From Lytechinus variegatus (taxonomy: Eukaryota; Echinodermata; Echinoidea; Temnopleuroida; Toxopneustidae), in NCBI RefSeq assembly GCF_018143015.1, contig NC_054746.1, positions 21,342,464 to 21,406,463 of the forward strand: DNA of 64,000 nucleotides, written 5' to 3'. Made by a program: the position numbers and the translations under genes. A model generated the notes under the pieces. It was given only the letters and a program-made list of their open reading frames with translations, did no database searches and was not told where the DNA came from. Below, one piece after another: positions 2,664-58,449 of this stretch (its first letter is position 1; each line of letters starts with the position of its first letter).

Positions 2664-2904
2664 ATTTTAATATCTGCAATACATGCTTGTTCATAAATGT
2701 TTTCATTCCTTTTTTTTGAGAATGGACTCAACATGTTGAAGATGAGCAACTTTCATATAGTCTATATACAATCTGCTTTGCAAGTCTAGCATCATATGCT
2801 GCTCCTTTTCGGATCATTTGGACCCATACCTCTCAATCATTATGCCATTTCCTCAGTCTCATCTCATTGTCTTTCTTCTGTGCTTTATGTACTCTTATTG
2901 TGCA

Positions 2905-2910
2905 AATAAA
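2905..2910 (+). terminator. Candidate poly(A) signal of the UGT gene
   Basis: AATAAA lies 242 bases after the UGT stop codon, followed by T-rich sequence. This is the first canonical hexamer downstream of the stop. Confidence 0.55.
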
Positions 2911-5900
2911 TCGAGTTTTATTATGATTCTATTCAGGATATAACTGTCCAAATGTTAGGCTCGTTATGACTCAAGGGAAGATTAATGTAGGGCCTACCTC
3001 AGAAATGCAACTGTGCTACATATTTCAATATATATATAAAAGAGCAGGAATCTGCATCTTTTCAAAGGATAACAAATTTGTAAATCAGACACTGATGTAC
3101 ATGTATATAGCATAACACAAATGGCAAACGCAATTGATTTATTCAAACGCGCCAGAGTAGAAGACAATCGTGGATCAGAATAGCGGCTCGTTTCTACTTC
3201 ATGCAAATAAACTTGCAAGGAATTACTCTGTCTGGAGGATAGGCAATCACAGAAATAGGCATTTTATTATGTATCGATTAAATGCAGGCAAACAAAACGT
3301 ATCTTTGTCTAATGAGCAAAATGGTTCCAGTAGTCACAATAAAATTACTGTTTATGTTTTGATTGTGTCGTGTTTTCTCACATTCATGGGAATAACGGGC
3401 ATAAATACAACTTCAAAGTAAGCATACAAACAATGTGAAATAAAATGAGTCAGCTGGACGCTCAAGTCAAGTTATCATACCTATCCAATCACTTTTTTTA
3501 TAGTTCGAATAAGATTAGCTGATTAATACTTAGTAAAACAAGAGAACCATCCAACATGATTATTTTACGGTTTGGCTTTAAAAAAATTCTCAAACTAACA
3601 AAGCGGTGCGATAAGGACACATGGTATGTATTAAGTCTCAATTGTTGATAGAGACAAATTTATGGCAGAGTATATTTTATCAGAGGAATTACCATTGGAA
3701 AGGATATGCAACAAAAGTACTATTGACATGAAATGTTTCATTTTGAAAACTGCAATCGACTGACGACTAATCAAAGAAAGTAATTCTGCGACATGAAAAT
3801 AGAAGGATTAGGTTGAGGATGATGAAAGGTGCAGTGGATCGGGCAAGAGGTTTAGGCGTTTGCTAGAGTTAACCTGAATCAGCATTGGACAAACCCCAAG
3901 TCAATGTCTTCAGACATTTCTAATAAGATTGTTGAAAGATCTTTTTGGATACACATCAATATTCACAAAGACATTTACAAGAAGAGGGGGCCTGAAAGTC
4001 TCTACACCCCCCCACACAGCTCACAACAAGATGAACCAAGTAAAAACAGAGGCACAGAAATAGACCGTATTTTATCTAAAGTAGCCCCCCCCCACCTAAA
4101 TAAAACATGCCTAAAGGATACCAAAGATTTCGTGAGGAGTCCTGATGTATCTCAATGCCATATAGTATCATGGTTTGCATTGTTTTGTTATGCCTTGCTC
4201 TTCCGGCCTTGGTCAAATACTCTTACCCCATCATAGTCTCAGATGGAAATGACAAATACAAAACAAAGGTAAAATCTGTATCACTGGACTTTAGTCCTTC
4301 TGTCTATGAGCAGTGCCCGGGGAGCAGTGGTTATAAGTATCACTAAAATACTGCTAGATTCAAACCAATTGCAATCATCATCTTGCCTTCAACACCTTTT
4401 CAAGGTCTATGTCATTGTGTCTCTGACAAAAACGTATAAGATCCCACCGCTGCCACCATTATAATGGAGCCTTCATTGAAAATTAGGTCAGGTTGACTTA
4501 ATCACCCATACCTCAACAACTCTACCAAAACATATCTCCTCTTTCATCCGAGTGGAGGAGGCTTTTGTAATTTTTCAGTCTGAGCAAGCTTTTACCACTT
4601 TAATAAACTAGTCTACAAAAATGATCCTTGTCTGTTTCTGATTCTGTGGCACTCAGCAGAGCAGCGTTCCACCGCATCAATGCTAAGCTGGTATATAACT
4701 AATTACATAGGAAACATATTACCCGTAAGTTAATAAGTCAAAGCGGCTGACCTTATAGACGACAGAAAAAAGGCCCCCTCAAAACATACAGACTTCCACC
4801 ACAACTTGATCCTGCCACCTACCTTTACTGTGGACTTTTTGGAGTCAGGTTGACTCTTCATAATCTTCTCTCACCATCTTTGCCAAGCCACCCTCCATAA
4901 CACATCCCACTGCTGCCACAATTATATGACACACACACGCATTTCTTATGATCTAATAAAGTTGTCCCTTTATTACACTAATCACCACTTAACTAATGCC
5001 TCCACCACATAGATGTTACATTTCATTGGCCTCCATCACATCCCAACACTGCCTCCATATATACAGAGGAGGCATTGATAAATGCATGACATACCAAACA
5101 AATAACAAAGCAGATGATATGAACAGATATTATCACATGTTAAAGGTGTTCTCCTCACTCATCTACTTCTTTCTCTGTAATCAAATAAAAATAAATGTCT
5201 CACTTTCCCTCTTGATATTCTGAATACTCACACTCCAGGAAAAAAAAAATCATTTAGAATGATTAAATGGATAATCAATATACAGTACTTTGAATCAATA
5301 GATATATATCAAAAGTTTTTATGCTATTCATGAAATACTGTTTATTGAGACAGCAATATCAATTAAGAGAAGGAATGTAATCCATTCAAGATATGGATTA
5401 AATTCTACTGGTTTACACTTTGGATAATCGGTTATTCAAATATACAAGTACAAATGAGGAAAAAAATATAGCAAAATGGGTTTCATTGTAAACATGTGGG
5501 GGTAAGAACTTGTGCATATCAAGTTGTCAACTATCTTGAGATTTGGTCATTTTGTGATTGACACTGGCTCTTTACAGTTGCTGTGTACAACTATACAATT
5601 AAAAACATTTTTTTAACAAGAGGAGATCAAGAGAAAAAAAACAATAGGGAAACACAGAGAGGGGAAGAATGGGAGAAATTTAAATGAGGGCGGGGTGGGA
5701 GAGAAAAGATAAAATAGAGAGTAATGTAGTGACAATATGGGTAACTCCGTCAAACAGGAACATGATATGAATAAATGAATCAAATTTTGATGTAAAATTA
5801 GAGCAAAAACATTTTTATATTTTGCTTCATTTTATAAAAAACATGCACATCATGGTTGGTATGTAAGGGAACAGATGACATCACCCACCCACTATTTTCT

Positions 5901-7223
5901 TTTTGTTTATTATTATGAGACATGGATTATTTTAATTTTCTCCTCATAGTAATGTGCAGCGAATTGGCTCTGTAAGCATGTGGCATTTCCACTCTTAACT
6001 TATTCTGATTCAATGAAAATATTCCTCATTGTCAAATCTGCAAATATTCACTTAACAAAATACAAAAGAAATATCAAGTGTGTCATCATCATATTTCTCA
6101 AAGTATACATTACTTTGTTGTGCACACATTTTTTGTGAAAAATATGCATAATTTTCAAATGCCACTACTTCCTAACTTAATATCTGAGTTTTATAAAGCT
6201 TTCATGCATGTTTGATATAAATTTCTTCTTATCTTGACAAACTTTTAGTTGGGGTGGACTTCCTCTTTAAATAAAATAATAAATTACTTCATGAATGGAG
6301 ATTTGTAATTGATACTTGCTGACAATATTGTCAATATACTGTGAAGTTACACTGTAATGTGACGGTTCTACTTTACTTCTACAAACAATTCCTAAATCCT
6401 AAACTCTTTTTAAATTAAAGAAAAAATATTGTTTTGCCATTTTTAAGATGTTTAAAATTGTTCATATTCCTTCACATTGATGAAAAATATATTTCCTTTA
6501 TTTACAAGATGAAATCTTAGCTTATAAAAATTGCATCCACAAGAAGAGCTAAAAGCTTTATAGCAATTAGCATTTAATTTAGCTATAACTATGAAGGTAT
6601 GGTAGCAATTTTAGATTTTTAATTCATTATATTTTCATTTTCTGTCAAATTTTCCCTAAAATGTTAAAAACACAATCCTGTTTCTGATAAAGTGTACAGA
6701 AGTGTATATTTCCATTTTCCTGTAAGAATATATTGCATACATGTATCTGTAATGTTTCATTTTGTCCCTTTTTAAAATAAAATATCAAATAACAGAAACT
6801 CTTCAAGCCAATAAAATGTTAAAAAGGTCTTGAAAACAAACATACATGGAGATAACAAAGTTATCCATCGACAGCTCAGATATGGAAGCATCGGTTACCA
6901 AATACCCGTCTACAGTTTTAATGGAGACTTCTAGTTTTTTGTCAAGTTACAAGTACATTTTTTCCTAAATTTTTTTTATCAAGATGCTTCATAAAATCTG
7001 GAAACTTTGGAAATACAGGAACAGTATTGAGAAAAATAATAAAACAAATAATCATTTTCAGTGAGAGTGATGGGACAAACTTATGGGACAAACTTTCAAT
7101 TCTGTGGAAATTGGATATCCCTATCTTTCCAGAGTGAAGCTGAGAAAAGATTGTGTAAAGAATCACATTGCATACAAGTGATAGTTTGTCTCATTCACTG
7201 AAATGAAAAAGATTATTATTGTC
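2911..7223. other. AT-rich intergenic DNA between UGT and GEMIN6
   Basis: No gene is recognised. The stretch has C-runs near 4003 and 4085 and degenerate copies of a CCCACYGCTGCCACC motif between about 4430 and 5060 (listed separately). Short ORFs here, including one of 110 codons at 3904-4236, have no recognisable domain. Confidence 0.5.
4430..5060. repeat. Degenerate remnants of a CCCACYGCTGCCACC repeat
   Basis: ATCCCACCGCTGCCACCAT at 4441-4459 and a near copy at 4907-4922 match the core of the ~62 bp minisatellite at 24835-25880 in inverse orientation. A weaker match (CATCCCAACACTGCCTCCAT) lies near 5040. GTCAGGTTGACT also occurs twice (about 4483 and 4844). This looks like an old, diverged array. 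Confidence 0.4.
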
Positions 7224-7229
7224 TTTATT
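7224..7229 (-). terminator. Candidate poly(A) signal of GEMIN6
   Basis: AATAAA on the minus strand, about 410 bases beyond the GEMIN6 stop. It is one of several such hexamers in AT-rich DNA, so the choice is uncertain. Confidence 0.35.
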
Positions 7230-7641
7230 ATATTCAACAGCGAAAACACAGATTAGAAACGATCAAATTATAGAAAGAAAAGGGAGTATATATCTCTCAA
7301 TTTACCCATCACCTTGCCAATAAACACAGACATCTGGTGGTTTGTATGGGTGGCTAGTTCTTATAGTCAATGTCCTGTTGCAGACTTGCCAGTCTCTTGA
7401 ACCCAGTTCTGCAATTATAAAACTTCTGGTACATAAAGTTCAATTACAGTCCATGTCTTTTACAGGTGACACACTAATATAATAACTTTCATGTGCCAGT
7501 CCTTCAAATACAGCTCTGCAAACATTGCTAAATTTCTTTCAGGAAATGTCCTGGCCAAGGTGTCACATTCATGTAAAAGAACAATACAATTGCAAGTCCT
7601 GCAAACAAAATTGAAGACCTGAGGAATCCAATTATCCAATG

Positions 7642-8026
7642 TCATGATGCATCATCCATGTTCCTAATGAGAGCCTGCACACGAGCCAAGATGATCTCAT
7701 TCTTGCACAGGCAGTTGTCAGGTTCGTACGGAGGCTCAATCACCAGTACATCTGAAATACTCAAGGAGTTATTGTCCTCTCCGCATTCTTTCACTGGTAC
7801 TCTATGAAGTTTCAACCAATCCTTTAGTTTTTCTTTCTGGTTTGCAAGTTCGCCCGCAGACAGGTACTGTGTCTGGGTGTTGTCTTTGAAGAGTTTATCA
7901 AGCAAAGCTTTGTGCTTGGTTGTGTCATTGTCCAGAATAGTGATGTCTGTGATGCTATGTCCCATGACGACAGATAGAGGGAGCTTTCCATCAGGCGAGC
8001 AGTTTTCACATTGGGCCAAGATGATG
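7642..8026 (-). CDS. GEMIN6: Gemin6, last coding exon (residues 56-183)
   Basis: This exon completes the Sm-like fold (PLSVVMGHSITDITIL) and encodes the C-terminal domain. Landmarks shared with vertebrate Gemin6 are an MGH motif, LKDWL and a tail with VLVIEPPYEPDNC then NEIILARVQALI. The vertebrate protein has GVLTIDPPYGPENC and NEIILSRVQDLI at these places, from memory. The splice acceptor is TTCCATTACAG ending at 8027; the exon begins with one base completing a Ser codon started in the exon at 12240-12406. The stop TGA is at 7642-7644. Gemin6 pairs with Gemin7 through Sm folds and belongs to the SMN complex, which loads Sm rings on spliceosomal snRNAs. The C-terminal PPY region resembles the anticodon-binding-like domain also seen in LSM12. 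Confidence 0.92.
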
Positions 8027-14555: not shown

Positions 14556-15661
14556 ACAAGTGGAATGCCTCTGGCCGTCTCACCTGCATCACGCGGTTCA
14601 ATATAGCAGCAGTGCTGACTTTGAATACTACTCTAACTCGCACAAGATGTTCAGTGATACATGGTTACTCTTATGTCCACTTTTTATGAACTAGACCAAT
14701 AAACTTACAGAGATATGATGGTTATTCACCAAAAAACCCCAACATGGCCAAAGTTCATTGACCTTACATGACCTTTGACCATGATCATGTGACCTGAAAC
14801 TCAAACAGGATATTCAGTGATACTTGATTACTCTTATGTACAAGTTTCATGAATCAGATCCATAAACTTTCAAAGTTATGATGGTAATTCAACAGATACA
14901 CCCAATTCGGCCAAAGTTCATTGACCTTTGACCTTGGTCATGTGACCTGAAATGTGCACAGGATGTTCAGTGATACTTGATTACTCTAATGTCCAAGTTT
15001 AATGAACTAGCCCAATAAACTTCCAAAGTTATGATGGTAATTCAACAGATACCCCCGTTTCGGCCAAAGTTCATTGACCCTAATGACCTTTGACCTTAAT
15101 CATGAGACCTGAAACTTGCACAAAATTTTCAGTGATGCTTGATTACTATTATGTCCAAGTTTCATGAATCAGATCCATAAATTTTCAAAGTTATGATGGG
15201 AATTCAACAGATATCTCCAATTCGGCCAAAGTTCATTGACCCTAAATTACCTTTGACCTTGGTCATGTGACGTGAAACTCATGCAGGATGTTCAGTGATA
15301 CTTGATTAACCTTATGTCCAAGTTTCATGAACTAGGTCCATATATTTTCTAAGTTATGATGACATTTCAAAAACTTAACCACAGGTTAAGATTTCGATGT
15401 TGATTCCTCCAACATGGTCTAAGTTCATTGACCCTAAATGACCTTTGACCTTGGTCATGTGACATGAAACTCTAATAGGATGTTCAGTAATACTTGATTA
15501 ACCTTATGGCCAAGTTTCATGAACTAGGTCCATATACTTTCTAAGTTATGATGTCATTTCAAAAACTTAACCTCAGGTTAAGATTTGATGTTGACGCCGC
15601 CGCCGCCGCCGTCGGAAAAGCGGCGCCTATAGTCTCACTTTGCTTCGCAGGTGAGACAAAA
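14556..15661. repeat. GTCTCACCTGC-ended repeat with ~155 bp internal units, copy 1
   Basis: The element starts ACAAGTGGAATGCCTCTGG, then CGTCTCACCTGCATCACG. It ends with a (GCC)n block, GCGGCGCCTATAGTCTCAC, and the inverse GCAGGTGAGACA followed by an A-rich tail. Inside are about five units each containing AAGTTCATTGACC and TGACCTTTGACC-type motifs, spaced 153-191 bases. Copy 2 lies at 41254-42120. Non-coding; superfamily not assigned. Confidence 0.85.
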
Positions 15662-17450: not shown

Positions 17451-20400
17451 CTGAATAACAAACAAACATAAAGTGAGAAATGTGAGAAATCAAACTAATG
17501 ACTTTATATGGCCCAGAAACAACATATGGAATATGTGATCAATAAACAGAAATATCCAAGCTTGATACCTCAATTTATGATAAGAAAAGAAAGACAACTC
17601 TTATCTAACATGACTTTTCTAGACTAAAAGTATGCATTTTTCATTAGAATTCTTCTAAACCTTACCATCAAGTTTTGATAAAGTACAATGCTTCAGCATT
17701 GAGATTAATTTGAAACAGAATATTGCAGCCCATCTAAAAAAATATTATTAATTGCAGTAAACAAATGTAGTTGGTGGGGAGAATGAATGCAAAATAACGA
17801 CTCAACTGAACTAAGAATTTGGACCTATTCATGTTCTTTTTTCACCAAATAATAAGCAGCTGACCTCAAAATACTAGAACTCTAATTCTGATCCATTGAT
17901 AAATCAGTAATTCTTTTGATGGATTTTGCCAAATATTTATTAATATGTTTATGTTTATCTCCTTTCATAAATATCAACTTAATGTTGGGGCGAATTCCCC
18001 CTTTAAAGAGAAATATTAAAACTAACATAGAGACTTACATCATTTTCGTGTGTCCCTTCATAGACGTGTTCATAGTTGGATGGTCTGAAGTTAATTGTTG
18101 CATTTCTGCCATACACATCATACCTCTCTGAATGTCTCTTCTTAATTCTCATATAGATGAAAGCAATAACGACCACCAGGAAGACACAGAGGGCGATGAT
18201 CGTACCGATAATCGCTGACATGGGCGATGATAGTCCTCGTTTATGCTGAGCTGCAGAAAAATGTTAATAATGGTGGAGGAAAAATTATCATGTATGAACC
18301 AGATATTGATTCCCACATGTTGGTTCTGTTTGTAAACATTTAAAAAAATCCCTATTCTTACTTGAGTATGAAAATAATTCTTATCTTTTGGAAAACTTCA
18401 AATGTCTTTGCATCATCAAAGATAAACAAACATTTATAAAAGTGAGGAAACAAACTTAGATAGTTTCACAAGTCATAGGCAAAGAAAAAAGAAAGAACAA
18501 ACAACTTGCAATTCAGTTACTGCTCATAAGGGAATGCCACAAATGAATGATATCAAATAACTTACTATTAAACAGTTTGTGGGTGGTAATTGCTACAGTC
18601 TTGGATCGTACTTCTCGAGTGACAGTGTCATTGTCCCATAGACCAAGGAGCTGTATGTGATATGTTTCGCCCTCTGTCAGGTTGCGTATCATGTATGATA
18701 GAGCTGAACGTTCTACTATCTCAGATTCCAATACTCGACTTTCGTCCTAGTTTGGGAAAGAAGTTTGTGGTTTCAGGTTATACTTCCAATATATCACAAG
18801 ATAAAATAAATTTTTCCTTTGGTAACCAAGATAGGATGACATACTGGTGAAACAGGATCGATATCATAGTAACTTACTTACTCACACACCCACACCCACA
18901 CATGCACCCCACTGACATTCATGCACTTCTGCATGCTCTCACTCAATTTATTCACACCCATAAACACCACCCTATCGACTATAAAGCACATTCTTACACC
19001 TGTTACTACCATTAACAATGTCAAACAGTTTCAGATGATGCAATGTATTATAAAAGAGTATTGTAGATGAAAAGCCTTGTTCAAGGGCCTTAGTGTTGGG
19101 GACTGAACCCTGAACTTTCATGTGATGGATCAGGTATCTTAGACCACCTGACTATGGCAGTTCCACTACTCTTTGAGAGATTGATGACAGACGATTTACA
19201 AAAAAACCCACACCCTCACCCACTCACACATTTTTAAAAGAGAACTTTGTACTAATCAGTATAAAGAAATACATTTTAAATTGGTGGATAAATAATATTA
19301 ACTATCGTGTAGTACAGAATATAAATACAATAAATATAATGAATTACTTTAAATGTGAGAGATCCTTAAACCACCAAAAGATAAAACATACAGGATTCCA
19401 AACTTTACAATGTGTCTTCCTCTTTTATACTAATGTGATACTAAAATTCTAAGATGTTTAATAAGGGGAGGAAAGAGACAGAAATTAAAAAAGCAAATAT
19501 CTTTTTAAAGAAATTGGTGGATAAATAATATTAAACTATAGTGTCGTACAGAATATAAATACAATAAATATAATACATTACTTAATGTGAGAGATCCTTA
19601 AACCACCAAAAGATAAAACATACAGGATCCAAAACTTTACAATGTGTCTTCCTCTTTTATACTAATGTGATACTAAAATTCTAAGATGTTTAATAAGGGG
19701 AGGAAAGAGACAGAAATTCAAAAAAGAAAATATTTTTTAAAGAAATTGGTGGATAAATAATATTAAACTATCGTGTCGTACAGAATATAAATACAATAAA
19801 TATAATACATTACTTAATGTGAGAGATCCTTAAACCACCAAAAGATAAAACATACAGGATCCCAAACTTTACAATGTGTCTTCCTCTTTTATACTAATGT
19901 GATACTAAAATTCTAAGATGTTTAATAAGGGGAGGAAAGAGACAGAAATTAAAAAAGCAAATATCTTTTTAAAGAAATTGGTGGATAAATAATATTAAAC
20001 TATAGTGTCGTACAGAATATAAATACAATAAATATAATACATTACTTAATGTGAGAGATCCTTAAACCACCAAAAGATAAAACATACAGGATCCCAAACT
20101 TTACAATGTGTCTTCCTCTTTTATACTAATGTGATACTAAAATTCTAAGATGTTTAATAAGGGGAGGAAAGAGACAGAAATTCAAAAAAGAAAATATCTT
20201 TTTAAAGAAATAACGAAATGATCATGCTACAGCTATCTTAATTTCAAGTCACAAAAATATATGAAAAGTGAGATATATCAGACGAATGAAACAAATATTA
20301 AAGAGATGCATGCATTCATGACACTGCTGAAGTAAAAATGGTATCAAATTTAAAATCTCAACAAAATCGCACACCAACTGAAATCAATGTATCCATAATA

Positions 20401-23400: not shown

Positions 23401-26400
23401 TACTAGCAGTCACTTGCCAGGATAATTTATAACCCACACATTTGATTGTATTACATCTTTATTAACCCAAATTTTAACCAAGAAAATTAATTAATGGGTG
23501 CCGAGATGAGAGGAAATTTATCACACACCTAAATTTGACATTTCCCCCCTTTTGCTTTCAATCTGAAATAATTCGTTTTTGGGGTTTATGTTTTGAAAAG
23601 TTTTAATAAGCCTTATAGCAAAACTTTCTTTCACTTGGCACATGATTATTCTGATTTGAATAAGTGTCAATTTCAATTTTTAATGAAACAGTACCAGACG
23701 GTATAAACTACCTACCATTTGGAAAACACTGCCACTCTGGACAGCATTCACCCTTGATGATAACCTGTCTAGGGTTTGGGCATAGTTCAGATGCAATTAC
23801 TTCTGTCTTGGGGCATAGTTCACGGCAGATAGTTCTTCCAGCTCGGCACTCACAGGCAGACTCACAGCCATCATTAAAATGCTCACCATGTTCGTAAACA
23901 ATGCCCTTATAAGTACATGGTTGCGCTGTAATAAGAATAGGAAAGCAAAGTATGTTCCTAAAATTAAACAAAGTGATTCTATATGCAGGAATGAATGGCA
24001 TTTGATGGTCCACTGACTGTATGTTAATGTTGATGTAAATACAATGCAATATTTTAAACATAGGAGGAAGAGGAAAACAGATCATCACATCAAATACCAT
24101 CTTGAATATGACAGTTTTTCATAGGTATTCTGATTTTAATGACAACTTTTATGTAAATTATTCTCAAACAGAAGCTATTACCACTCTGTGATTTGCAATG
24201 CCAAACTGGTTTGTAACCATATCTCCTCATTGCCAGATGTGAGTGGGCCAGTGTGGTATACTTACGTGCATTTTCAGATGTAGTGACAAGAAAGATATCA
24301 GTACTTGGTAGAGTGTTGGGCCATCGTGGGGCCAGCTGGGAGTCCATATTATCTGGTATACTGACTCTGATCTTTAGGTAATATGTTGTCTCTTGCAACA
24401 GGTTATTTATCTCCATCATGATGTGGCCACGAATCTCAACACCAAGGGGAAAATCCTGAGAAGAAAAGGAACAAATAAAATATTTATCACAGTACCTTCA
24501 CAACAGGTATCCTACTTGATATGTTGAATGCATTTTGAAATTGAAAATGTATGCTAAGGCACTGTCACACCGTTCCATGCAATCCTTGTGGGTTAGTTGT
24601 GGGTAATTGCATGCAACTCACCCTAAACAAAGTTTTGAGCATGTTCAAACCTTTCCTGCACAGATCAGACTTCCGTGCGCTTCTGTGGGAAACTGCATTT
24701 GAGATGCGTGCGAGATGCTGACAATGCAGCCGACCTGCTGGTGACTTGCGGGTACCAGCAAATATAGTCACCCGCAAATCACACGCAAAGCTTGCATGGA
24801 ATGATGTGACAAGGCCTTTAAAACCACATTTCAAAGCAGTGGGATACTAACACAAACCATCTAAATGATTAAAGATCCTTTCATTACTAATAAGGTGGCA
24901 GCAGTGGGATACAACCCAAACCATCTAAATGACTAGAAATGCTTTCATTACTAATATGGTGGCAGCGGTGGGATACATCCGATTCATCTAAATGACTTAA
25001 GATCCTTTCATTACTAATATGGTGGTAGCAGTGGGATACAACCAAAACCATCTAAATGACTAGAAATGCTTTCATTACTAATATGGTGGCAGCAGTGGGA
25101 TACATCCCAAACCATCTACACAACAGAGATCCTTTCATTACTAATATGGTGGCAGTGGTGGGATACTAATATAAACCATCTGAGTGACTAAAGATCCTTT
25201 CATTTCTGATATGGTGGCAGCAGTCGGATACATCCCAAACCATGTAAATGACTAAAGATCCTTTCATTTTTAATATGGTGGCTGCAGTGAGATACTAAAA
25301 CAAACCATCTAAATGACTAGAGATGATTTCATTACTAAATATGGTGGCAGCGATGGGTTACAATCCGATTCATCTAAATGACTAAAGATCTTTTCATTAC
25401 TGATATGGTGGCAGCAGTGGGATACAACCAAAACCATCTAAATGACTAGAAATGCTTTCATTACTAATATGGTGGCAGCACTGGGATACAATCCAATTCA
25501 TCTAAATGACTTCAGATCCTTTCATTTTTAATATGGTGGCTGCAGTGTGATACTAAAACAAACCATCTAAATGACTATAGAGATCCTTTCATTACTGATA
25601 TGGTGGCAGTGGTGGGATACAATCTGATTCATCTAAATGACTAAAGATCCTTTCATTTTTAATATGATGGCTGCAGTGGGATACTAATACAAACCTTATA
25701 AATGACTGGAGATCCTTTCCTTATATGGTGGCAGTGGTGGGATACTTACACAAATCATTTGAATGACTAGACTCTAAGATCCTTTCATTACTAATATGGT
25801 GGCAGCAGTGGGAAACAACCCAAACATCTAAATGACTAGAGATCCGTTCACTACTAATATGGTTGCTATTATCTCTAATGCCCCTGATAATCATAGACGT
25901 TAAAGTAATAAGGAGATTGTCCATTTAACAGACAATTTCATCTTAGCGTACCTTTCTCAGTGCCGTCCAATCATCAAGCGTGACATTTTCTGATCTATTG
26001 GTATAGTAGATGATGTATCCATCAGTCATTGCTCTCAGGTCAGTGTTGGCTGGTGGTGTGAACCCAACTGTAATGGCCGTCATGTTGAAGGCCAGAACTG
26101 AGACATCCTGGACCACATTTGGACTCTCTGCAGGGAGAAGAATAATTTATACATTAAAAAACAAAACCAAACAACAATAAGTTGATTCAAAACAATTTGC
26201 TGCATTGGAAATGCTTGAGTTGATAACTACAAATTCACAATGGACCTAGAGATTGTTTGCAAAACAACACCTTATATTTTTGGCACAGCTTGCCAAAGAT
26301 GTGGGGCCTGAAACATACCTCCTTTTGGGTCATGACAAGCAATCACCCGACAGCAGTCTGTTTCTCTCAGCTTGGTAACTACAGGATGTGGACAAAGTGG

Positions 26401-41253: not shown

Positions 41254-42120
41254 ACAAGTGGAATGCCTCTGGCCGTCTCACCTGCATCACGCGGTTCAAT
41301 ATAGCAGCAGTGCTGACTTTGAATACTACTCGAACTCGCACAAGATGTTCAGTGATACATGGTTACTCTTATGTCCACTTTTTATGAACTAGACCAATAA
41401 ACTTCCAGAGATATGATGGTTATTCAACAAAAAACCCCAACATGGCCAAAGTTCATTGACCTTACATGACCTTTGACCTTGATCATGTGACCTGAAACTC
41501 GAACAGGATGTTCAGTGATACTTGATTAAGTTTCATGAATCAGATCCATAAACTTTCAAAGTTATGATGGTAATTCAACAGATACACCCAATTCAGCCAA
41601 AGTTCATTGACCTTTGACCTTGGTCTTGTGATACTTGATTACTCTAATGTCCAAGTTTAATGAACTAGACCAATAAACTTTCAAAGTTATGATGGTAATT
41701 CAACAGATGACCTTTGACCTTGGTCATGTGACGTGAAACTCATGCAGGATGTTCAGTGATACTTGATTAACCTTATGTCCAAGTTTCATGAAGTAGGTCC
41801 ATATATTTTCTAAGTTATGATGACATTTCAAAAACTTAACCTCAGGTTAAGATTTCGATGTTGATTCCTCCAACTTGGTCTAAGTTCATTGACCCTAAAT
41901 GACCTTTGACCTTGGTCATGTGACATGAAACTCTAATAGGATGTTCAGTAATACTTAATTAACCTTATGGCCAAGTTTTATTAACTAGGTCCATATACTT
42001 TCTAAGTTATGACGTCATTTCAAAAACTTAACCTCAGGTTAAGATTTGATGTTGACGCCGCCGCCGCCGTCGGAAAAGCGGCGCCTATAGTCTCACTTTG
42101 CTTCGCAGGTGAGACAAAAA
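41254..42120. repeat. GTCTCACCTGC-ended repeat, copy 2
   Basis: Nearly identical to copy 1 (14556-15661) at both ends and most of the interior, but ~240 bases shorter because parts of the ~155 bp internal units are missing (junctions near 41526 and 41707). It has the same orientation as copy 1, with the (GCC)n block and GTCTCAC..GTGAGAC hairpin at the right end. Confidence 0.88.
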
Positions 42121-47076: not shown

Positions 47077-47222
47077 GTCACATTTATCCTACGGCGGCCG
47101 TACGATTTGGAAACAGTCGTTTATTCCCTTTACTAAAATCACACATTATGTATAGCTGGTACACAAAATGTTAAAACGGCTGTTTTCGACTCGACGTGCA
47201 GCCGCCGTATAGGGAAATTTCA
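47077..47222. mobile_element. Possible 146 bp TIR element abutting the foldback composite
   Basis: GTCACATTTATCCTACGGCG at the left is roughly inverse to CGCCGTATAGGGAAATTTCAC at the right (mismatches in the middle). The right end coincides with the left end of the foldback composite. Confidence 0.4.
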
Positions 47223-50210
47223 CGGGTGTCTGGAAAACGAAGACCGAAGACCGAAGACCGGGGACACGTATCACACTCGTGTGAAAGCGTTTGTAGTTCA
47301 CGCACGAAGCGTGTAATATTAAGCAGTGCAAAGTGTGTACAAAACACGTGCGCGGGTTAGAATGGACTTTGGACCTTGCCCCCTACACATGTTCTCCCAT
47401 TGACATAACGCATGTCCCCGGTCTTCGATCTTCGTTTTCCAGACCTGTTGTTGGGTGTCTGGAAAACGAAGACAGAAGACCGGGGCCATCGCATCCGTCT
47501 AGCTAAAATAAACCATTATTATATTCAGATCAAATTCAGGAATATTCTGATATTGGATATGTAATGAATTATGATTGGTTAATGATTAATTGTATGGATA
47601 TCGTAATGTGAATGATAATTGATTGAGCAATATATCGCGCTCAGCTCAGCTGGCATGAAAATTTTATACCATTGACATAACGCATGTCCCCGGTCTTCGT
47701 TTTCCAGACCTGTTGTTGGGTGTCTGGAAAACGAAGACAGAAGACCAGGGCCATCGCATCCGTCTAGCTAAAATAAACCATTATTATATTCAGATCAAAT
47801 TCAGGAATATTCTGATATTGGATATGTAATCAGTTATAATTGGCTGATAAGTTAATGATTAATTGTATGGATCGTGATGCATGATAATTGATTGAGCAAT
47901 TATATCGCGCTCAGCTCAGCTGGCCTTAAAATTTTACTACCATTGACATAACGCATGTCCCCGGTCTTCGATCTTCGTTTTCCAGACCTGTTGTTGGGTG
48001 TCTGGAAAACGAAGACAGAAGACCGGGGCCATCGCATCCGTCTAGCTAAAATAAACCATTATTATATTCAGATCAAATTCAGGAATATTCTGATATTGGA
48101 TATGTAATGAATTATGATTGGTTAATGATTAATTGTATGGATATCGTAATGTGAATGATAATTGATTGAGCAATATATCGCGCTCAGCTCAGCTGGCATT
48201 AAAATTTTATACCATTGACATAACGCATGTCCCCGGTCTTCGATCTTCGTTTTCCAGACCTGTTGTTGGGTGTCTGGAAAACGAAGACAGAAGACCGGGC
48301 CATCGCATCCGTCTAGCTAAAATAAACCATTATTATATTCAGATCAAATTCAGGAATATTCTGATATTGGATATGTAATGAATTATGATTGGTTAATGAT
48401 TAATTGTATGGATATCGTAATGTGAATGATAATTGATTGAGCAATATATCGCGCTCAGCTCAGCTGGCATTAAAATTTTATACCATTGACATAACGCATG
48501 TCCCCGGTCTTCGATCTTCGTTTTCCAGACCTGTTGTTGGGTGTCTGGAAAACGAAGACAGAAGACCGGGGCCATCGCATCCGTCTAGCTAAAATAAACC
48601 ATTATTATATTCAGATCAAATTCAGGAATATTCTGATATTGGATATGTAATGAATTATGATTGGTTAATGATTAATGGATATCGTAATGTGAATGATAAT
48701 TGATTGAGCAATATATCGCGCTCAGCTCAGCTGGCTTTAAAATTTTATACCATTGACATAACGCATGTCCCCGGTCTTCGATCTTCGTTTTCCAGACCTG
48801 TTGTTGGGTGTCTGGAAAACGAAGACAGAAGACCAGGGCCATCGCATCCGTCTAGCTAAAATAAACCATTATTATATTCAGATCAAATTCAGGAATATTC
48901 TGATATTGGATATGTAATCAGTTATAATTGGCTGATAAGTTAATGATTAATTGTATGGATCGTGATGCATGATAATTGATTGAGCAATTATATCGCGCTC
49001 AGCTCAGCTGGCCTTAAAATTTTACTACCATTGACATAACGCATGTCCCCGGTCTTCGATCTTCGTTTTCCAGACCTGTTGTTGGGTGTCTGGAAAACGA
49101 AGACAGAAGACCGGGCCATCGCATCCGTCTAGCTAAAATAAACCATTATTATATTCAGATCAAATTCAGGAATATTCTGATATTGGATATGTAATGAATT
49201 ATGATTGGTTAATGATTAATTGTATGGATATCGTAATGTGAATGATAATTGATTGAGCAATATATCGCGCTCAGCTCAGCTGGCATTAAAATTTTATACC
49301 ATTGACATAACGCATGTCCCCGTCTTCGATCTTCGTTTTCCAGACCTGTTGTTGGGTGTCTGGAAAACGAAGACAGAAGACCGGGGCCATCGCATCCGTC
49401 TAGCTAAAATAAACCATTATTATATTCAGATCAAATTCAGGAATATTCTGATATTGGATATGTAATGAATTATGATTGGTTAATGATTAATTGTATGGAT
49501 ATCGTAATGTGAATGATAATTGATTGAGCAATATATCGCGCTCAGCTCAGCTGGCTTTAAAATTTTATACCATTGACATAACGCATGTCCCCGGTCTTCG
49601 ATCTTCGTTTTCCAGACCTGTTGTTGGGTGTCTGGAAAACGAAGACAGAAGACCAGGGCCATCGCATCCGTCTAGCTAAAATAAACCATTATTATATTCA
49701 GATCAAATTCAGGAATATTCTGATATTGGATATGTAATCAGTTATAATTGGCTGATAAGTTAATGATTAATTGTATGGATCGTGATGCATGATAATTGAT
49801 TGAGCAATTATATCGCGCTCAGCTCAGCTGGCCTTAAAATTTTACTACCATTGACATAACGCATGTCCCCGGTCTTCGATCTTCGTTTTCCAGACCTGTT
49901 GTTGGGTGTCTGGAAAACGAAGACAGAAGACCGGGGATCGCATCGATCCGTCTTGCTAAAATAAACCATTATTTTATTTAGATCAAATTCAGGAATATTC
50001 TGATATTGGATATGTAATCAGTTATAATTGGCTGATAAGTTAATGATTAATTGTATGGATCGTGATGCATGATAATTGATTGAGCAATTATATCGCGCTC
50101 AGCTCAGCTGGCCTTAAAATTTTACTACCATTGACATAACGCATGTCCCCGGTCTTCGATCTTCGTTTTCCAGACGTGTTGTTGGGTGTCTGGAAAACGA
50201 AGACCAGGGA
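47223..50210 (+). repeat. Left arm of the foldback composite: outer module plus ~10 tandem units
   Basis: Hairpin boundaries recur near 47414, 47690, 47957, 48231, 48501, 48768, 49046, 49317, 49590, 49866 and 50146. Two unit types alternate: type A has GAATTATGATTGG and GATATCGTAATGTGAATG; type B has CAGTTATAATTGGCTGATAA and GATCGTGATGCATG. Order from outside in is A B A A A B A A B B. Diverged homology continues to about 50245. Confidence 0.9.
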
Positions 50211-50408
50211 TTTTGTCTAGGTAATTACCACTTATAGCGTGCTACGGACACGTTTTCGTGCAATTGTACTTCGTTTTCTTCTAGTCGACTTATAAAAAGT
50301 TATATGTCGCCATGACGAGATATGATATCTTATAAAAGGTCATATAGCCTATGTGGACATGGCATGATTAAGTTTCTCGCCAAGTCGATGGCACTTAAAC
50401 GTGTAAAA

Positions 50409-50986
50409 GGGATGGTCCGGGCTGAAAATATTTATATTTTAATACATACAGTAGAATTCACTGAGCAATGTGCCGAAAATTTTATCAAAATCGGATAGCA
50501 AGTAATATTAAGTCATTGAAATTTAAAGTTTAGCAATATATTGTGAAAACAGTCGTCTTGAATATTCATTAGGCGGGCTGATATTGTCACATCTCCACTT
50601 TCCGTTTTCCTATGTTATTAAATATGACCATAATTTTTACATTATTTCATACTTGTGCAAATAATATGTCTCCCTTATAATGAAATAAGTTGCAGCAATG
50701 AATATTTGATGCACTAAATCAGTTGCCAATCCAATTTTTCTAGTTCTTGGATGAAAAAAATTGAATAAACCTAATTTCACATACTAAAATACAAAAGAAC
50801 AAGTGGAGATGTGACATCATCAGCCAACCTAATGAATATTAATGACGACTGTTTCCACAAAATATTGCTAAATTTTAAAATTCAATAACTTTGTTTATAT
50901 CCGATTTTGATGAAATTTTCGGTATTGTACTCAGTGAATTCTACTCTATTCATTAAGCTAAACACACTTTCAGCCCGGACCATCCC
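50409..50986. mobile_element. Palindromic MITE (GGGATGGTCCGGGCTG family)
   Basis: GGGATGGTCCGGGCTGAAA at the left is exactly inverse to TTTCAGCCCGGACCATCCC at the right, and pairing continues, with mismatches, for roughly 190 bases (for example GAATATTCATTAGGCGGGCTG with CAGCCAACCTAATGAATATT). A one-armed copy is at 62020-62320. Confidence 0.85.
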
Positions 50987-51217
50987 ATTAAAAACTCCGT
51001 ATAAAATAAACCTAATTGTAATAGAAAGCAATGTCATCGACCTAAGACAGGTGGCAAGCGCGCCCTTGGAGAATGTTTTCCATACGGTCGGCGAACATGA
51101 AACACTAGTGTGTCGCTTGCTTACTACTTTGCGGTTAAACCCGAGACGTTCCCACGCGTACATTTCGAGACAGCAACATTCAGTACGCGTTTGGAAGAAA
51201 ATTACCCTGTTTACACG

Positions 51218-51254
51218 TGCATCGGCTTTTGGTTCAGAACCAAAAGCCGATGCA
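51218..51254. repeat. Perfect 37-base palindrome
   Basis: TGCATCGGCTTTTGGTTC and its inverse flank a single A. The half CAGAATCGGCTTTTGGTC recurs just downstream (51253-51270). Confidence 0.85.
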
Positions 51255-51359
51255 GAATCGGCTTTTGGTCTATCTTGCACCGCAGAATCGGCTTACCCTC
51301 TCTGGGAATCGACGGGCAGACGACATTTGGATCTCTTAGTCTCGCCTTCACCTCTTGTG

Positions 51360-51830
51360 GGCGAGACAAACAATGAGAGAGAGAAAGAGAATAAAGAAAC
51401 AAGAGGAGAAAGGAAAAGGACGTAGAGTGAACAAATCTAATCATCCTGAAATAGGGCCTACTATTAAACAAGTGAGAAAGGGGTTAGAAATAAAGAGATG
51501 GCAAAGTGAAATGGAAATTTTAGGCGGGAAAGGGATGGAAAAGAGGTCAAAATAAACGGGATGTGAAAATGCTAACATGAAATCTGAATAGAAAACAGAA
51601 AAACAAGGGGGAAAAGAAAGAAATTAAGAACACAACAGCTAGTGGCTGTGTCAGGGCGGGGGGCTCCCCCCCCCTGAGATTTGCTGTGAAAAAAAATTGG
51701 CAGAGCAAAAAAAAAGAGAGAAAGAAGAAAAGATAAAAGGAAAAGAAGAAGAAAAGATAAGTGGAAAATAAGAGGAGGAAGACGAGTGAATGAAATAATG
51801 TGAGGGGAAGACTTCCCAAAAAAAATCTTC
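51360..51830. repeat. Purine-rich, strand-asymmetric tract
   Basis: A and G dominate the plus strand (AGAGAGAAAGAG, AAAAAAAAGAGAGAAAG). The leucine- and phenylalanine-rich ORFs on the minus strand are artefacts. Confidence 0.7.
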
Positions 51831-52059
51831 CATGTTACTATAAAAAAAATCTTTGCTTTTGCTTCGCGCCAGAATTGCCTTTTCGATGAGATTCGTATCT
51901 TGCTCAATACATGTAGGCTGATATGGAGCAAGTTTTGAATTTATTATACAAAACATAATTAGCTCGGACATCGAGCTTTCAATATTTTTTTCATTCACAA
52001 ATTTAAGTGCTCTGTAAAATGTCCGTTTTATTGTCTACATATCAGCATTTTTTCTAAAG

Positions 52060-52860
52060 CTCACGCTGCGTGGTCACATTGTTTGATTTGCCAAGTTCCT
52101 ATTGTCTATAATGTTTCATTAAAGAATGTATTCAGAAAGCCCAGATTCTAGGTCTAAATCTAAAACATGCGCGATAGCCTGCATGTTCTTTATTTAAAAT
52201 CTATTTGAATTATCCAGTTTCACATCATAATATCAATAATTGTCTGCTCGCGCCTCACGATCGCATTAGTAATGATACCCAATTAACTATATCTTATTTA
52301 TTATTTACAAAATATGAATAGTGTCCCGCTTTTAGGTCTGAAATCTCTTTTTTTTCCTCTCGCGCTTCGCGCTCGCATCCATTGTTTCGTTACATACCTA
52401 TCCCTTTTATTGATACAAAAAAGTAATTACCATTCTTTTAGGTCGGAATGTTAAAAAAAATGCTTTATTGAAATATATACCGTCTTCGTGGGTACCTATA
52501 AACAGTCCTTAACAGGTCCCTTTTCGATAATGCTAGGACAGTTAATAACAATTTCTGCTCGCGCTTTGCGCTTGCAGTAATTATCTAGTTACATACGCAT
52601 CTTGTTCAGGTTCACAAACATTGCCCAGAATAGTCAATTTTCAGGTTAAAATATATACATGCAATTCTAAAAATTTTCAGCTCGCGCTTCGCGCTCACAT
52701 ATATGGAGCTTAAAATATCAAGATTTGAAGTTAATATACAAAACATATTTTATCTCGGATATCGAGCTTTCATTATTTTTTCAATTTACAAATTGATTTT
52801 TTCTTGAAAGTGCTATGTAGGTCTAAATATTAATATTTTCAGCTCACGCTGCTCAGTCGC
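52060..52860. repeat. Degenerate GCTCGCGCTTCGCGCTCGC repeats, block 1
   Basis: Six copies of a CTCGCGCTTCGCGCTCGC-like word occur at about 52060, 52245, 52358, 52555, 52679 and 52838, separated by AT-rich sequence with shared words (GGTCTGAAAT, ATTTTCAGCTC). This is the same repeat as at 63060-63780. Confidence 0.7.
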
Positions 52861-53077
52861 ATTATTTGATTTGCATAGGTCTACTTCTATATATATTCTT
52901 ACGTACCGTCCTTAAAATGCATCTTAAACGAATGGTTTACTATCATGATTGCCAATTTGTTTAGAAAAAACACTGTTTTTGATTATGTCATATTCTTTAC
53001 AATTGTTTACAATTTAGTAATTTTGGTACTTAATTTCCTTCTTTAATGTTGCTTTCATCCAAGAGTAAAACACAAAA

Positions 53078-53130
53078 AACACCTTGTAATTTTACCATTT
53101 AGGGCCTAAATGGTAAAATTACAAGGTGTT
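53078..53130. repeat. Perfect 26+1+26 palindrome
   Basis: AACACCTTGTAATTTTACC through ATTTAGG is followed by one G and then its exact inverse. Such uninterrupted arms would extrude as a hairpin. Confidence 0.95.
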
Positions 53131-53757
53131 CTTGTTTGTATTATCTTTGCATAAAGTTTTTGAGCTTGCTGGAATGTGCACCAATCGTTTCATAATTTTT
53201 AGCTTCTTATTAGTTGAATTGTTTTAAAATAACAGGATTATAAGTCCTACTTGAGTGTGTTAGTGTTGATAGATGCGTTATCGACTTTCAATATATTTTT
53301 ACCTATAAAGGTGTCTTTTTACGTTTTATCTATTTGCCTGATTTCTTTCCTGAAATTGAACCCAAAATAAATATTTAAAAAATCAGATCAGTTGGAATCG
53401 GAGATATTCAACATTTGTGATTATTATGACTAATCGTGTTCAATTGATCTATGAAAACTTAGTATGAGGGCCAGTTTACACATTTTCTGATGAATATACG
53501 CATAGCCAAACGGGAGATTTCGGGTGCAAGACCCCCCCCCCATTTTTCATGATGCAGAAGGCGCCGCTAAACAAAAAAAAACCGAAGAAAGAAGAAAGTG
53601 AGAGAAAAGGAAAAAGAGCAATATCAAAGAGAAATAAAAATTATCAAGGTAAGATAATGTAGAAAATATTTCGAAAAACCTGTGCCACCGACCAAAACTT
53701 AAAAAGGGTCCCGCTTCTAACATTGATGCTGGAGAGAAGGGATGACTTTATGGGGGG

Positions 53758-53990
53758 AAATTGTCCGGGGGATAATTGTCCTCGATGGTTTTTGTCCGGG
53801 GGCTAATTGTCCTCGAGGATAATTGTCAGGGGGGTAAGTGTCCTCGGGGGGCTTATTGTCCGGGGGTAGTTGTTCGGGGGTAGTTGTCCGGGGGGAATTG
53901 TCCGAGGGTGATTGTCCAGGGGGTAGTTGTCCGGGGGTAATTGTCCGGGGGTAATTGTCCGGGGTAATTGTCCGGGGGTAATTTTCCTAG
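53758..53990. repeat. (GTCCGGGGGTAATT)n minisatellite
   Basis: About 15 units of 14-17 bases, varying as GTCCGGGGGTAGTT, GTCCTCGAGGATAATT and the like. The minus strand reads as a PGQLPPDNYPRTI-like peptide, an artefact of the unit length. Confidence 0.92.
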
Positions 53991-54004
53991 AACCATTCAC
54001 ACAA

Positions 54005-56284
54005 ATAACCATATATCCGCCGCCAATCATAGCAGATGACGTATCCAAGATCAAAATATTCTTGAACTGGTGCTGAATATTATAGGCCTATCTTAGCTAG
54101 ACAAAATTATACGCGATCCCCGGTCTTCTGTCTTCGTTTTCCAGACACCCAACAACAGGTCTGGAAAACGAAGATCGAAGACCGGGACATGTGTTATGTC
54201 AATGGTAGTAAAATTGCAAATGCCAGCTGAGCGCGATATATTGCTCAATCAATTATCACTCACATTACGATATCCATACAATTAATCATTAACCAATCAT
54301 AATTCATTACATATCCAATATCAGAATATTCCTGAATTTGATCTGAATATAATAATGGTTTATTTTAGCTAGACGGATGCGATGGCCCCGGTCTTCTGTC
54401 TTCGTTTTCCAGACACCCAACAACAGGTCTGGAAAACGAAGATCGAAGACCGGGGACATGTGTTATGTCAATGGTAGTAAAATTGCAAATGCCAGCTGAG
54501 CGCGATATATTGCTCAATCAATTATCACTCACATTACGATATCCATACAATTAATCATTAACCAATCATAATTCATTACATATCCAATATCAGAATATTC
54601 CTGAATTTGATCTGAATATAATAATGGTTTATTTTAGCTACACGGATGCGATGGCCCCGGTCTTCTGTCTTCGTTTTCCAGACACCCAACAACAGGTCTG
54701 GAAAACGAAGATCGAAGACCGGGGACATGCGTTATGTCAATGGTATAAAATTTTAATGCCAGCTGAGCTGAGCGCGATATATTGCTCAATCAATTATCAC
54801 TCACATTACGATATCCATACAATTAATCATTATACCAATCATAATTCATTACATATCCAATATCAGAATATTCCTGAATTTGATCTGAATATAATAATGG
54901 TTTATTTTAGCTAGACGGATGCGATGGCCCCGGTCTTCTGTCTTCGTTTTCCAGACACCCAACAACAGGTCTGGAAAACGAAGATCGAAGACCGGGACAT
55001 GCGTTATGTCAATGGTATAAAATTTTAATGCCAGCTGAGCTGAGCGCGATATATTGCTCAATCAATTATCACTCACATTACGATATCCATACAATTAATC
55101 ATTAACCAATCATAATTCATTACATATCCAATATCAGAATATTCCTGAATTTGATCTGAATATAATAATGGTTTATTTTAGCTAGACGGATGCGATGGCC
55201 CCGGTCTTCTGTCTTCGTTTTCCAGACACCCAACAACAGGTCTGGAAAACGAAGATCGAAGACCGGGGACATGCGTTATGTCAATGGTAGTAAAATTTTA
55301 AGGCCAGCTGAGCTGAGCGCGATATAATTGCTCAATCAATTATCATGCATCACGATCCATACAATTAATCATTAACTTATCAGCCAATTATAACTGATTA
55401 CATATCCAATATCAGAATATTCCTGAATTTGATCTGAATATAATAATGGTTTATTTTAGCTAGACGGATGCGATGGCCCTGGTCTTCTGTCTTCGTTTTC
55501 CAGACACCCAACAACAGGTCTGGAAAACGAAGATCGAAGACCGGGGACATGCGTTATGTCAATGGTATAAAATTTTAATGCCAGCTGAGCTGAGCGCGAT
55601 ATATTGCTCAATCAATTATCATTCACATTACGATATCCATACAATTAATCATTAACCAATCATAATTCATTACATATCCAATATCAGAATATTCCTGAAT
55701 TTGATCTGAATATAATAATGGTTTATTTTAGCTAGACGGATGCGATGGCCCCGGTCTTCTGTCTTCGTTTTCCAGACACCCAACAACAGGTCTGGAAAAC
55801 GAAGATCGAAGACCGGGGACATGCGTTATGTCAATGGTATAAAATTTTAATGCCAGCTGAGCTGAGCGCGATATATTGCTCAATCAATTATCATTCACAT
55901 TACGATATCCATACAATTAATCAGTAACCAATCATAATTCATTACATATCCAATATCAGAATATTCCTGAATTTGATCTGAATATAATAATGGTTTATTT
56001 TAGCTAGACGGATGCGATCGATGGCCCCGGTCTTCTGTCTTCGTTTTCCAGACACCCAACAACAGGTCTGGAAAACGAAGATCGAAGACCGGGGACATGC
56101 GTTATGTCAATGGGAGAACATGTGTAGGGGGCAAGGTCCAAAGTCCATTCTAACCCGCGCACGTGTTTTGTACACACTTTGCACTGCTTTGTACACGCTT
56201 CGTGCGTGAACTACAAACGCTTTCACACGAGTGTGATACGTGTCCCCGGTCTTCGGTCTTCGGTCTTCGTTTTCCAGACACCCG
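54005..56284 (-). repeat. Right arm of the foldback composite: ~7 tandem units plus outer module
   Basis: Hairpin boundaries recur near 54117, 54388, 54657, 54929, 55200, 55479, 55749 and 56025. From outside in the units read A A B A A A A, the two innermost sharing a variant (GTAGTAAAATTGCAAATGCC). The stretch 54005-54116 is a clearly more diverged unit fragment. Confidence 0.9.
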
Positions 56285-58449
56285 ACATCTCACTGTGGTA
56301 AGGCTAGTTAGTGCACGAATAGCATCTTATGTTTTGAAGTATTACCCCCTCAAAATACTAAATCTCATGAGGGGCAATGATAATGGGTCAGTTATAATCA
56401 TGGATGTTAAAAATGTACTTTTTTATTTGACCATTACACAATTAATTCCAGTGATTTCCAGGAGATGTTGTTTCTTATCAGATGTTTATGGTCGACATGA
56501 GTATATTTAAATTGAATAATATCATAAATAACAATCTAATACCATTTTCATCCTTATGAATGAGACGTTATAAAAGATGGAAAAAAACTGATTTAACACA
56601 CACAATCTAATGAAATTTACTATGTAGGGTGGAACATGCATTTTTGTTGGTTACATATCACCAAATATAATGTTGTATAGTTTTGCCTATAAAGTATGCT
56701 ATTTATTTAATATACATCTCACTAAACAAACACTCATTTTCATTTTTACCCGGTGTAAAGAGAGCCCAAAAAAGAAGTATGAAGACTTTTATGCCTTTCT
56801 ATGTCTATCTGCCTGCTTTATAGCTTTCCGTTTCATGTTGCAGTCAGCGTGGTAGAGGAGCCATAACGCTGCATGGTCTTTCATGATTTTTGAACGAAGA
56901 CCATGGCGCCAATAAAAAAGAGCTAATCAAGAGTGATCAAAAAGAAAAAATTACACTTTTGCCTAAAAAAAAGCGGGGAAAAGAAACCAAATGGGAAAAT
57001 TTAAAGGAACTAGCTTGAGAGTGATCTAACTGGCGGTGAGAAAATGACAATCGGTGATCAGCCCTATCAAAATGGTGCCATGTTCTACTATATATAATAT
57101 CAGATCATTCATGATCACGAAACGATTCGTAGAAATGGGACGGAATAAAGTATTCTACACGTTTTAAAGCCACGATGATTTTTTTATCATTAAAGGGGAA
57201 TTTGAATGGCAATGCCCATTCATCATTACCTCCCTCATTAAACTGGTGTGCAAACACCAACATATAGTCAAAATTTGCCCCCCAATGTTTTATCTAAATT
57301 TTATTTTAAAAATTATTTTTCGAGTGAAAATTAGTTTTGAGGGTATTTCGATGGAAGTACGGAGGATTTCGGGGGGGGGGGGTGGGGGTAAGAATGAAGG
57401 AAATATGTTCATAACATAAATGTGCAAGCGAGGAAGCAAATCAATCGAACAGACGACGAAAGATGTGTTTAATAGCATGGTGGGTCGATGGTGACACGCA
57501 TTGAGTGACTTGCAATGTGCAAGAAAAAAATGACTCATTTTGATTTCAATATTATTTTATGATCTCATCATTCGCATATTATGATTCATTTCTTATTATG
57601 ATGATTATTAACGTTATCATCAAAACATTTTTTGAACATTTATTTATATGTCTCCTACTATGACTACACTTTATTAAACAGCATTCATAACTAATGCTCA
57701 CAAATTATGAAAAAAAAACAGACCCAACCCAGGTTTTTCCCCAGACGCTACAGTTAAAAATTAAATATATACCACATATAAATCCCAATTACACTTCTCA
57801 TTTAAATTTAATATTGAAAAGCTGTCAACATTACTGCAGCTGCTAAAGCATGCTAATTCATATTACATTGTATTATAGGCTTAAGTGATAATCGTTCCCT
57901 CCAATAGACTACATTGAAAAGGGAGGTCAGGTGTGAAATTACAAAATAATATACGTGTCTATCATGATTTATTAAATTATGCGTAATCCCAAAGTTTCGA
58001 GAATTATTCATTTTACTAAATTCGACAAAGCGTGAAATTCTTCATTATATACTTGTCATAACCCAGAATGCGAAAAATATACGATTTTGTTCCCCATTCA
58101 CCCCGTGTGACACAAAGTTTACAGATCAATTGCTTATTAAACAAGGCAAACGCCAAGCGTTGTCTCGCCTGCATATTGCAGTCATGAAGAGACTGCATGT
58201 CAAAACTATGCTATATGACTTCTGAGGCTGTCAGCAGTTTAGGGGGTGAATTGTGGTGTGAATATTATAAATGGTGCGAAGAACTATAGCTCATTGAATA
58301 AATAACAACAACAGTTTTTAAAGAATAAACAAGTAAAATACAAAATCTGGTTCAGGTATAGAGAGTACTGAGTTCTGAAGTAAAATGTTAGTGTTAAAAA
58401 GTATAAAATTATAAAGTTCATGTCATTAGAGGAACAAAGTAGTGTGAAA
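56285..58449. other. AT-rich DNA, no gene seen
   Basis: There is a G-run at 57369-57390. Only short ORFs without known domains. Confidence 0.4.

Follow-up and report, generated by a model that had tools for sequence, protein, structure and literature searches.

Foldback-type elements are transposons with very long inverted termini of tandem repeats around a loop. In sea urchins they are known from Strongylocentrotus as the TU elements, which have modular inverted ends; the outer domains of TU consist of ~15-bp tandem repeats and its duplications measure 8 bp, and it is on this general description that we set TU against the element reported here. Among Mutator transposons, target duplications are 8-11 bp long, mostly 9. 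The element in question lies in a 64,000-nucleotide stretch of the Lytechinus variegatus genome (contig C7, 21342464-21406463; 'the window' hereafter denotes this whole stretch), and is very probably a non-autonomous sea-urchin Foldback-type DNA transposon with satellite-like arms and, it would seem, Mutator-like movement.

Compared by description, the closest anatomy appears to be that of Tetris, from Drosophila virilis, whose long inverted arms, set around a non-coding middle, combine a flanking domain on the outside with ~220-bp tandem repeats that vary in number (PMC4079207). The same account gives duplications of 8-10 bp, places Tetris with Mutator by duplication length, records that its repeats also occur in longer satellite-like arrays and that an autonomous copy was not found, and proposes, from three complete copies, that foldback elements may seed satellite DNA (PMC4079207). 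Tetris differs from the present family in host phylum, in unit length (~220 vs. 272 bp) and in having three structurally complete copies, against 26 paired copies here (duplication with at most one mismatch). Because flanking and tandem-repeat domains, a non-coding middle, satellite arrays and duplications of 8-10 bp are already found together in Tetris, we regard the window element as a case of a known kind.

Other described systems share parts of this anatomy. Tm1 of root-knot nematodes has composite inverted ends of variable length, transposase-less members, and duplications of 8-10 bp, mostly 9, in 45 of 53 cases; some Tm1 members encode a Phantom-type (FLYWCH + MULE) transposase (PMC3169594), whereas none could be tied to the window family. 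Galileo, from Drosophila, has tandem-repeat arms in which repeat number may differ between sides (PMC3573991). Rehavkus has 9-bp duplications, inverted ends of up to 400 bp and an internal minisatellite, which in its case stands before the 3' end, and differs further in a transposase with a PHD finger and in its hosts, tabulated in the cited source as arthropods and annelids (PMC6446971). In the open-licence literature we found neither this element nor any sea-urchin foldback family built of ~272-bp units described, a search that left older subscription papers on TU outside its reach.

Anatomy of the window element

The element occupies positions 47224-56283 (9,060 bp) and consists of two inverted arms around a non-coding loop. 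Both ends read GGGTGTCTGGAAAACGAAGACCGAAGACCGAAGACCGGGG, inverted to each other, and a 10-bp flanking repeat with two mismatches stands just outside them, as GAAATTTCAC on the left (47214..47223) and GACATCTCAC on the right (56284..56293). A left outer module of 229 bp (47224..47452, plus strand) leads into the left array, made of 10 full units of 265-280 bp and an innermost terminal word (47453..50206, plus); beyond the ~3.9-kb loop (50207..54117), the right array of 7 full units of 268-278 bp (54118..56057, minus) runs inverted with respect to the left and ends in a right outer module of 226 bp (56058..56283, minus). Tandem Repeats Finder (TRF) reports the two arrays, one at 47397-50204 (period 271, 10.3 copies, 94% matches) and the other at 54118-56113 (period 272, 7.3 copies, 96% matches), and inverted pairs between the arms reach 619 nt at 100% identity.

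These nested scales are built from a single terminal word, GTCTGGAAAACGAAGA, of which the window holds 40 exact copies on both strands together, and still 40 when up to two mismatches are allowed, with starts from 47228 to 56264. The word is found, inverted, at both outer ends and again at the unit boundaries, where it faces its own inverse at 11 junctions in the left arm and 8 in the right. The first 21 bases of each unit are those of the outer end and its last part is the inverse of the terminal word, so that each junction makes a long hairpin. When three junctions of 70-71 nt were folded as single-stranded DNA, among them 47416..47486 in the left arm (-30.4 kcal/mol, z -9.69) and 55199..55268 in the right (-30.0 kcal/mol, z -9.85), free energies of -25.1, -30.0 and -30.4 kcal/mol were obtained, compared with shuffle means of -7.5 to -8.9 kcal/mol (z -8.8 to -9.9; 0 of 200 shuffles equally good) and -0.1 kcal/mol for the single mid-unit control stretch. 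CGAAGAC is present three times in the left outer module and once, exactly, in each of the 11 inner left-arm junctions, 10 of which carry a degenerate second copy, AGAAGAC.

Structurally, then, the element is of the Foldback type, and this much of the sequence-only reading, which had described modular inverted ends, a word shared by outer termini and unit bounds that pairs with its own inverse, and three CGAAGAC in outer modules against one or two inside, agrees with what we found. That reading had also held that the same inverted repeat acts at the scale of hairpin, unit and whole element; this holds as anatomy, whereas no array unit was seen to work as a transposon end. Among six unit-type termini not preceded by T, none was an array-internal unit serving as an end (five were array junctions and one an outer module with a two-word terminus), in a search blind to termini that follow a T or depart from the pattern at any base; internal units as alternative ends were accordingly set aside, 0 of 6 candidates having qualified. 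The outer module concerned, at C4:56978562 (seen in the fetched stretches L093 and L096), has two words as array units do, and the number of terminal words thus varies. A looser word, GGGTGTCTGGAAARCG, again not preceded by T, has 224 genome matches (control 0), more than the strict ends account for, with extra ends or array variants mixed among them. At C3:46393215-46394127 (G000), three terminus words of the same orientation, each after C, follow one another at intervals of 448 bp, as if an end had been duplicated in tandem.

The loop holds a nested palindromic segment (50406..50989; arms 92 nt long at 83% and 91 nt long at 88%), a further inverted pair of 52 nt at 77%, and a 14-bp minisatellite, GGGGGTAATTGTCC (53753..53987, plus; TRF). 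Rfam, run over the window at gathering scores, returned 0 matches.

Insertion and copies across the genome

The assembly searched comprises 869,567,369 bases in 33 contigs. Its contig C33 carries a COX1 frame that stays open under the mitochondrial code shared by echinoderms and flatworms (24 codons are read otherwise than by table 11), and the neighbouring DNA can be recognised by eye as 16S rRNA, COX1, tRNA, ND4L, COX2, tRNA and ATP8, in the order known from sea urchins; code and gene order together make a sea urchin the most likely source. A 31-base outer-end pattern, allowed up to two mismatches on both strands, has 126 matches (66 forward, 60 reverse) and its reversed control 0; a unit-junction pattern, allowed one mismatch, has 2,826 (1,390 + 1,436), and its control likewise 0. 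The zero control matches exclude a chance origin for outer ends and junctions alike. Convergent neighbouring ends, paired by eye from the listed places, define 33 intervals of 2.5-51.5 kb (median 11.5 kb), the longest of which may be false pairs or hold other insertions.

Flanks were read for 29 pairs including that of the window; one, at C2:54.25 Mb, was excluded for want of a right terminus. In 23 of the remaining 28, the ends are flanked by an exact, flush target duplication, more often of 10 bp (14 pairs) than of 9 bp (9 pairs), and the count rises to 26 with up to one mismatch and 27 with up to two, the twenty-seventh being the window element itself. Pairs made up from ends of different elements show a duplication in 0 of 756 cases, even at the two-mismatch level. 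Flanks of 26 elements were then joined across one duplication copy and searched, and the 40 best of 10,122 candidates were scored; all 40 belong to two sites, at C1:7.56 Mb (at least 11 places) and C17:26.27 Mb (at least 29), each place matching at 100% across the junction, and the result accordingly covers 2 of the 26 joined sites. The element-free places are copies of repeats into which the two elements inserted. Since outer ends occur genome-wide, with target duplications and element-free sites, the family is a real transposon that inserts by its outer modules and leaves 9-10 bp target duplications.

A search for the outer module and a comparison of insertion-free alleles had both been proposed on the sequence alone. 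Outer ends and convergent pairs are spread through the genome, and the element-free places that match the insertion sites of two elements carry a single copy of the duplication. Outer modules confined to this locus, with arms set in opposite orientation by misassembly, are not what the genome contains.

From the best 40 of 312 candidate places for the outer module, 20 stretches of ~10 kb around other ends were fetched (L-numbers denote fetched stretches). The loop is matched in 17 of these, in L018 by 173 bp only, and is absent from L013, L019 and L021. Ten copies carry it in pieces at 96-100% identity; in six others (L011, L015, L017, L020, L022 and L024) it stands mostly at 91-95%. Four of the latter (L015, L020, L022, L024) have an extra 2.6 kb after loop position 149 (L020 5252-7844), and L011 and L017 just ~215-220 bp where the 2.6-kb segment stands in this second subfamily.

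A sister copy of the window element lies at C4:22.6 Mb (L009), and its loop differs by 0 substitutions and 7 short gaps over 3,915 columns; five of the gaps are single bases in the minisatellite, one is a base in an A run and one is of three bases. The window loop differs from a copy on C6 by 2 substitutions and from three more copies by 9, 15 and 19, and the copies are, to judge by so few substitutions, recent.

Arrays and arms

Unit number varies from copy to copy and, within a copy, from one arm to the other, although arrays of near-identical repeats are prone to assembly error and some of these differences may be technical. A long run among the matches listed lies at C1:1580142-1593515, where at least 44 exact units of the same orientation occupy 13.4 kb, interrupted by four gaps, each two or three units long; the array is adjoined by a loop match at 1577885, and six listed units stand on the far side of that loop. 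No right outer end of this copy was present among the matches listed for the outer-end and looser-word patterns.

The internal order of the arrays was examined by comparing units at increasing lag, using 268 entries from 20 loci and the window element (nine of the entries being actually outer modules) and the 17 arms with at least nine entries. Identical units recur at lag 2 in L026 (13 pairs) and the left arm of L014 (3 pairs), with none at lag 1 in either, and at lag 6 in L012 (4 pairs), and unit distances are lowest at lag 3 in L025 and in the right arm of L028; the other arms among the 17 show no comparably clear period. Blocks of two, three or six units thus seem to have been duplicated, in the manner of higher-order satellite repeats, and the arrays have the look of an incipient satellite.

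Comparison is sharpest between the two sister copies. The window element and L009 have 11 vs. 8 junctions in one arm and 8 vs. 5 in the other, and differ in length by 1,621 bp; 9 of 17 window units recur exactly in L009, and 6 of 11 L009 units in the window. As the loops are identical in substitutions and the arrays unequal, array length would have changed before any loop base was substituted, provided that both assemblies are right.

It might be supposed instead that gene conversion between the arms, through repair of hairpins or cruciforms, does more to keep the arms of an element alike than does duplication of blocks within an arm. The perfect inverted stretches of the window arms would suit this, as would unit distances (calculated for seven elements with outer modules removed) that average 0.073 for opposite arms within an element as against 0.132 from element to element. 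The opposite arm's best match clearly beats the mean of other elements in three of the seven (the window element, L011 and L016) and is slightly closer in L027, with two about equal; for L009, however, 20 of 23 other arms lie nearer than the opposite one, and each of the seven elements has at least two arms elsewhere that are closer. The same excess likeness, moreover, is predicted if the two arms descend from a common source. The outer modules of two copies tell against conversion: within the window element, as within L009, the two modules differ at 5 of 163 columns, compared with a mean of 0.8% between elements, and both sister copies keep, in one module, an arm-specific marker that occurs in none of the 24 further outer modules compared. 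In the three other elements with both modules, these differ at 1, 2 and 3 columns, so that this test draws on the two sister copies. On balance we consider arm conversion an unlikely main cause of arm likeness, and continue with block duplication within arms.

Superfamily, movement and implications

The longest stop-to-stop frame in the loop is 178 aa, and neither eight loop frames nor two frames of L020 gave a Pfam match above cut-off; weak matches to IRK and Neil1-DNA_bind, in loop frames and in frames from the 2.6-kb segment, fall below curated cut-offs. The earlier observation that the loop shows no transposase, and with it the suggestion that mobility is supplied in trans, is therefore upheld, the latter as a deduction from a loop in which none was found. 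The 2.6-kb segment was rejected as a transposase source, its frames in L024 and L020 (two of four copies) being at most 127 aa long. The only long frame of L013, of 611 aa (6118-7953, minus), lies ~5.5 kb inside a lone element end and is B-box/TRIM-like by eye; it too was rejected, as resembling a TRIM-type host gene.

Elsewhere in the genome, MULE domains are found at 31 places (E threshold 0.001), and two of five proteins tested from such places combine the domain with a FLYWCH zinc finger, as Phantom elements do. Frames of 892 aa with MULE domains (C4:1418193, C4:3497720) are 38 and 48 kb away from outer ends, with the same relative direction in each case. The duplications reported above (exact 9 bp in 9 of 28 pairs, exact 10 bp in 14 of 28) have the length produced by Mutator-like transposases, and it is from this length, with no transposase tied to the element, that we infer the superfamily.

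Unrelated superfamilies can give rise to Foldback anatomy, as Galileo shows (PMC3573991), and the element could on that ground, given that no deciding transposase was found here, be a Foldback-like member of the P superfamily. Galileo, with its P-superfamily transposase, makes 7-bp duplications (PMC3573991), however, as against 9 or 10 bp here, and we think membership in the P superfamily very improbable. That the outline is an accident of an inverted or misassembled satellite array, as the satellite-like unit with its thousands of junction matches and the long C1 array might suggest, can be dismissed almost entirely, in view of the 126 outer ends, the flush duplications of true pairs as against none in mismatched ones, the recurrence of the loop next to the arms in 17 of the 20 stretches, and the element-free sites, which refute it for the family.

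Several observations weigh against the interpretation of the element as a Mutator-moved foldback transposon with changing arrays, beginning with the caution about array assembly given above. The Mutator-like assignment is drawn from duplication length; 0 of 34 MULE places (the 31 above and three more) fall inside any of the 33 paired intervals, and the terminal word, sought within ~1.5 kb with up to three mismatches, is near 0 of 20 MULE loci (of the 31). One fetched copy, L021, is loopless, with arms head to head at a hairpin junction (601-3076), and has no target duplication; its arms differ in unit types (AA vs. DTDB), and by analogy with Galileo, in which chimeric copies without matching duplications are described (PMC3573991), it looks like a chimera from recombination between two copies.

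The window's own duplication is the remaining difficulty. Two mismatches in ten positions beside a substitution-free loop are not expected from simple ageing, by reasoning rather than by a computed test, and the interior of the window element seems to be younger than its insertion. Three explanations offer themselves: the interior may have been overwritten by a younger copy, the duplication may have been imperfect from the start, or its match may be due to chance, the ends coming from different insertions. An exchange between elements was also considered and set aside, as the window's flanking 9 bases, sought beside other element ends with up to one mismatch, have 0 and 0 matches, and hence no partner end; the imperfect duplication makes an exchange less likely, if still conceivable.

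Elsewhere in the window, several further features were noted. An open frame of 572 aa (945-2663, plus) is, by eye, a candidate UDP-glucuronosyltransferase. Two separate arrays (14635-15594 and 41707-42055) consist of related 153-192 bp repeats containing TGACCTTTGACCTT, and there are tandem arrays of a 232-bp unit (19278-20211, 4 copies, 97% matches) and a 64-bp unit (24835-25863, 16 copies).

The proposed course of events for the foldback family is as follows. Elements would move by cut-and-paste, served in trans by a Mutator-like (MULE) transposase, for which the repeated terminal words might provide many binding sites, a role resembling that proposed for the tandem repeats of Galileo as secondary transposase-binding sites (PMC3573991). 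Arrays would grow and shrink by gain or loss of blocks of units, through unequal exchange or replication slippage, perhaps assisted by the junction hairpins, and with each arm changing independently, some arms would become satellite-like. A bolder version, which we offer tentatively and think more likely wrong than right, is that the family acts as a satellite nursery, in which junction hairpins drive block change faster than bases mutate, each transposition starts an independent satellite experiment on either side, and newer copies overwrite old interiors, whereby a substitution-free loop could come to stand beside an aged duplication.

A single chromosome-scale genome here offers 26 paired copies with duplications, two with element-free sites, and sister copies that combine substitution-free loops with unequal arrays. 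Should the array lengths be confirmed by long reads, one could measure directly how fast and in what steps arrays change, and what part the hairpins play. The family should therefore be useful material for learning how foldback arms turn into satellites, in arrays that seem to shift before the middles of the elements acquire substitutions.

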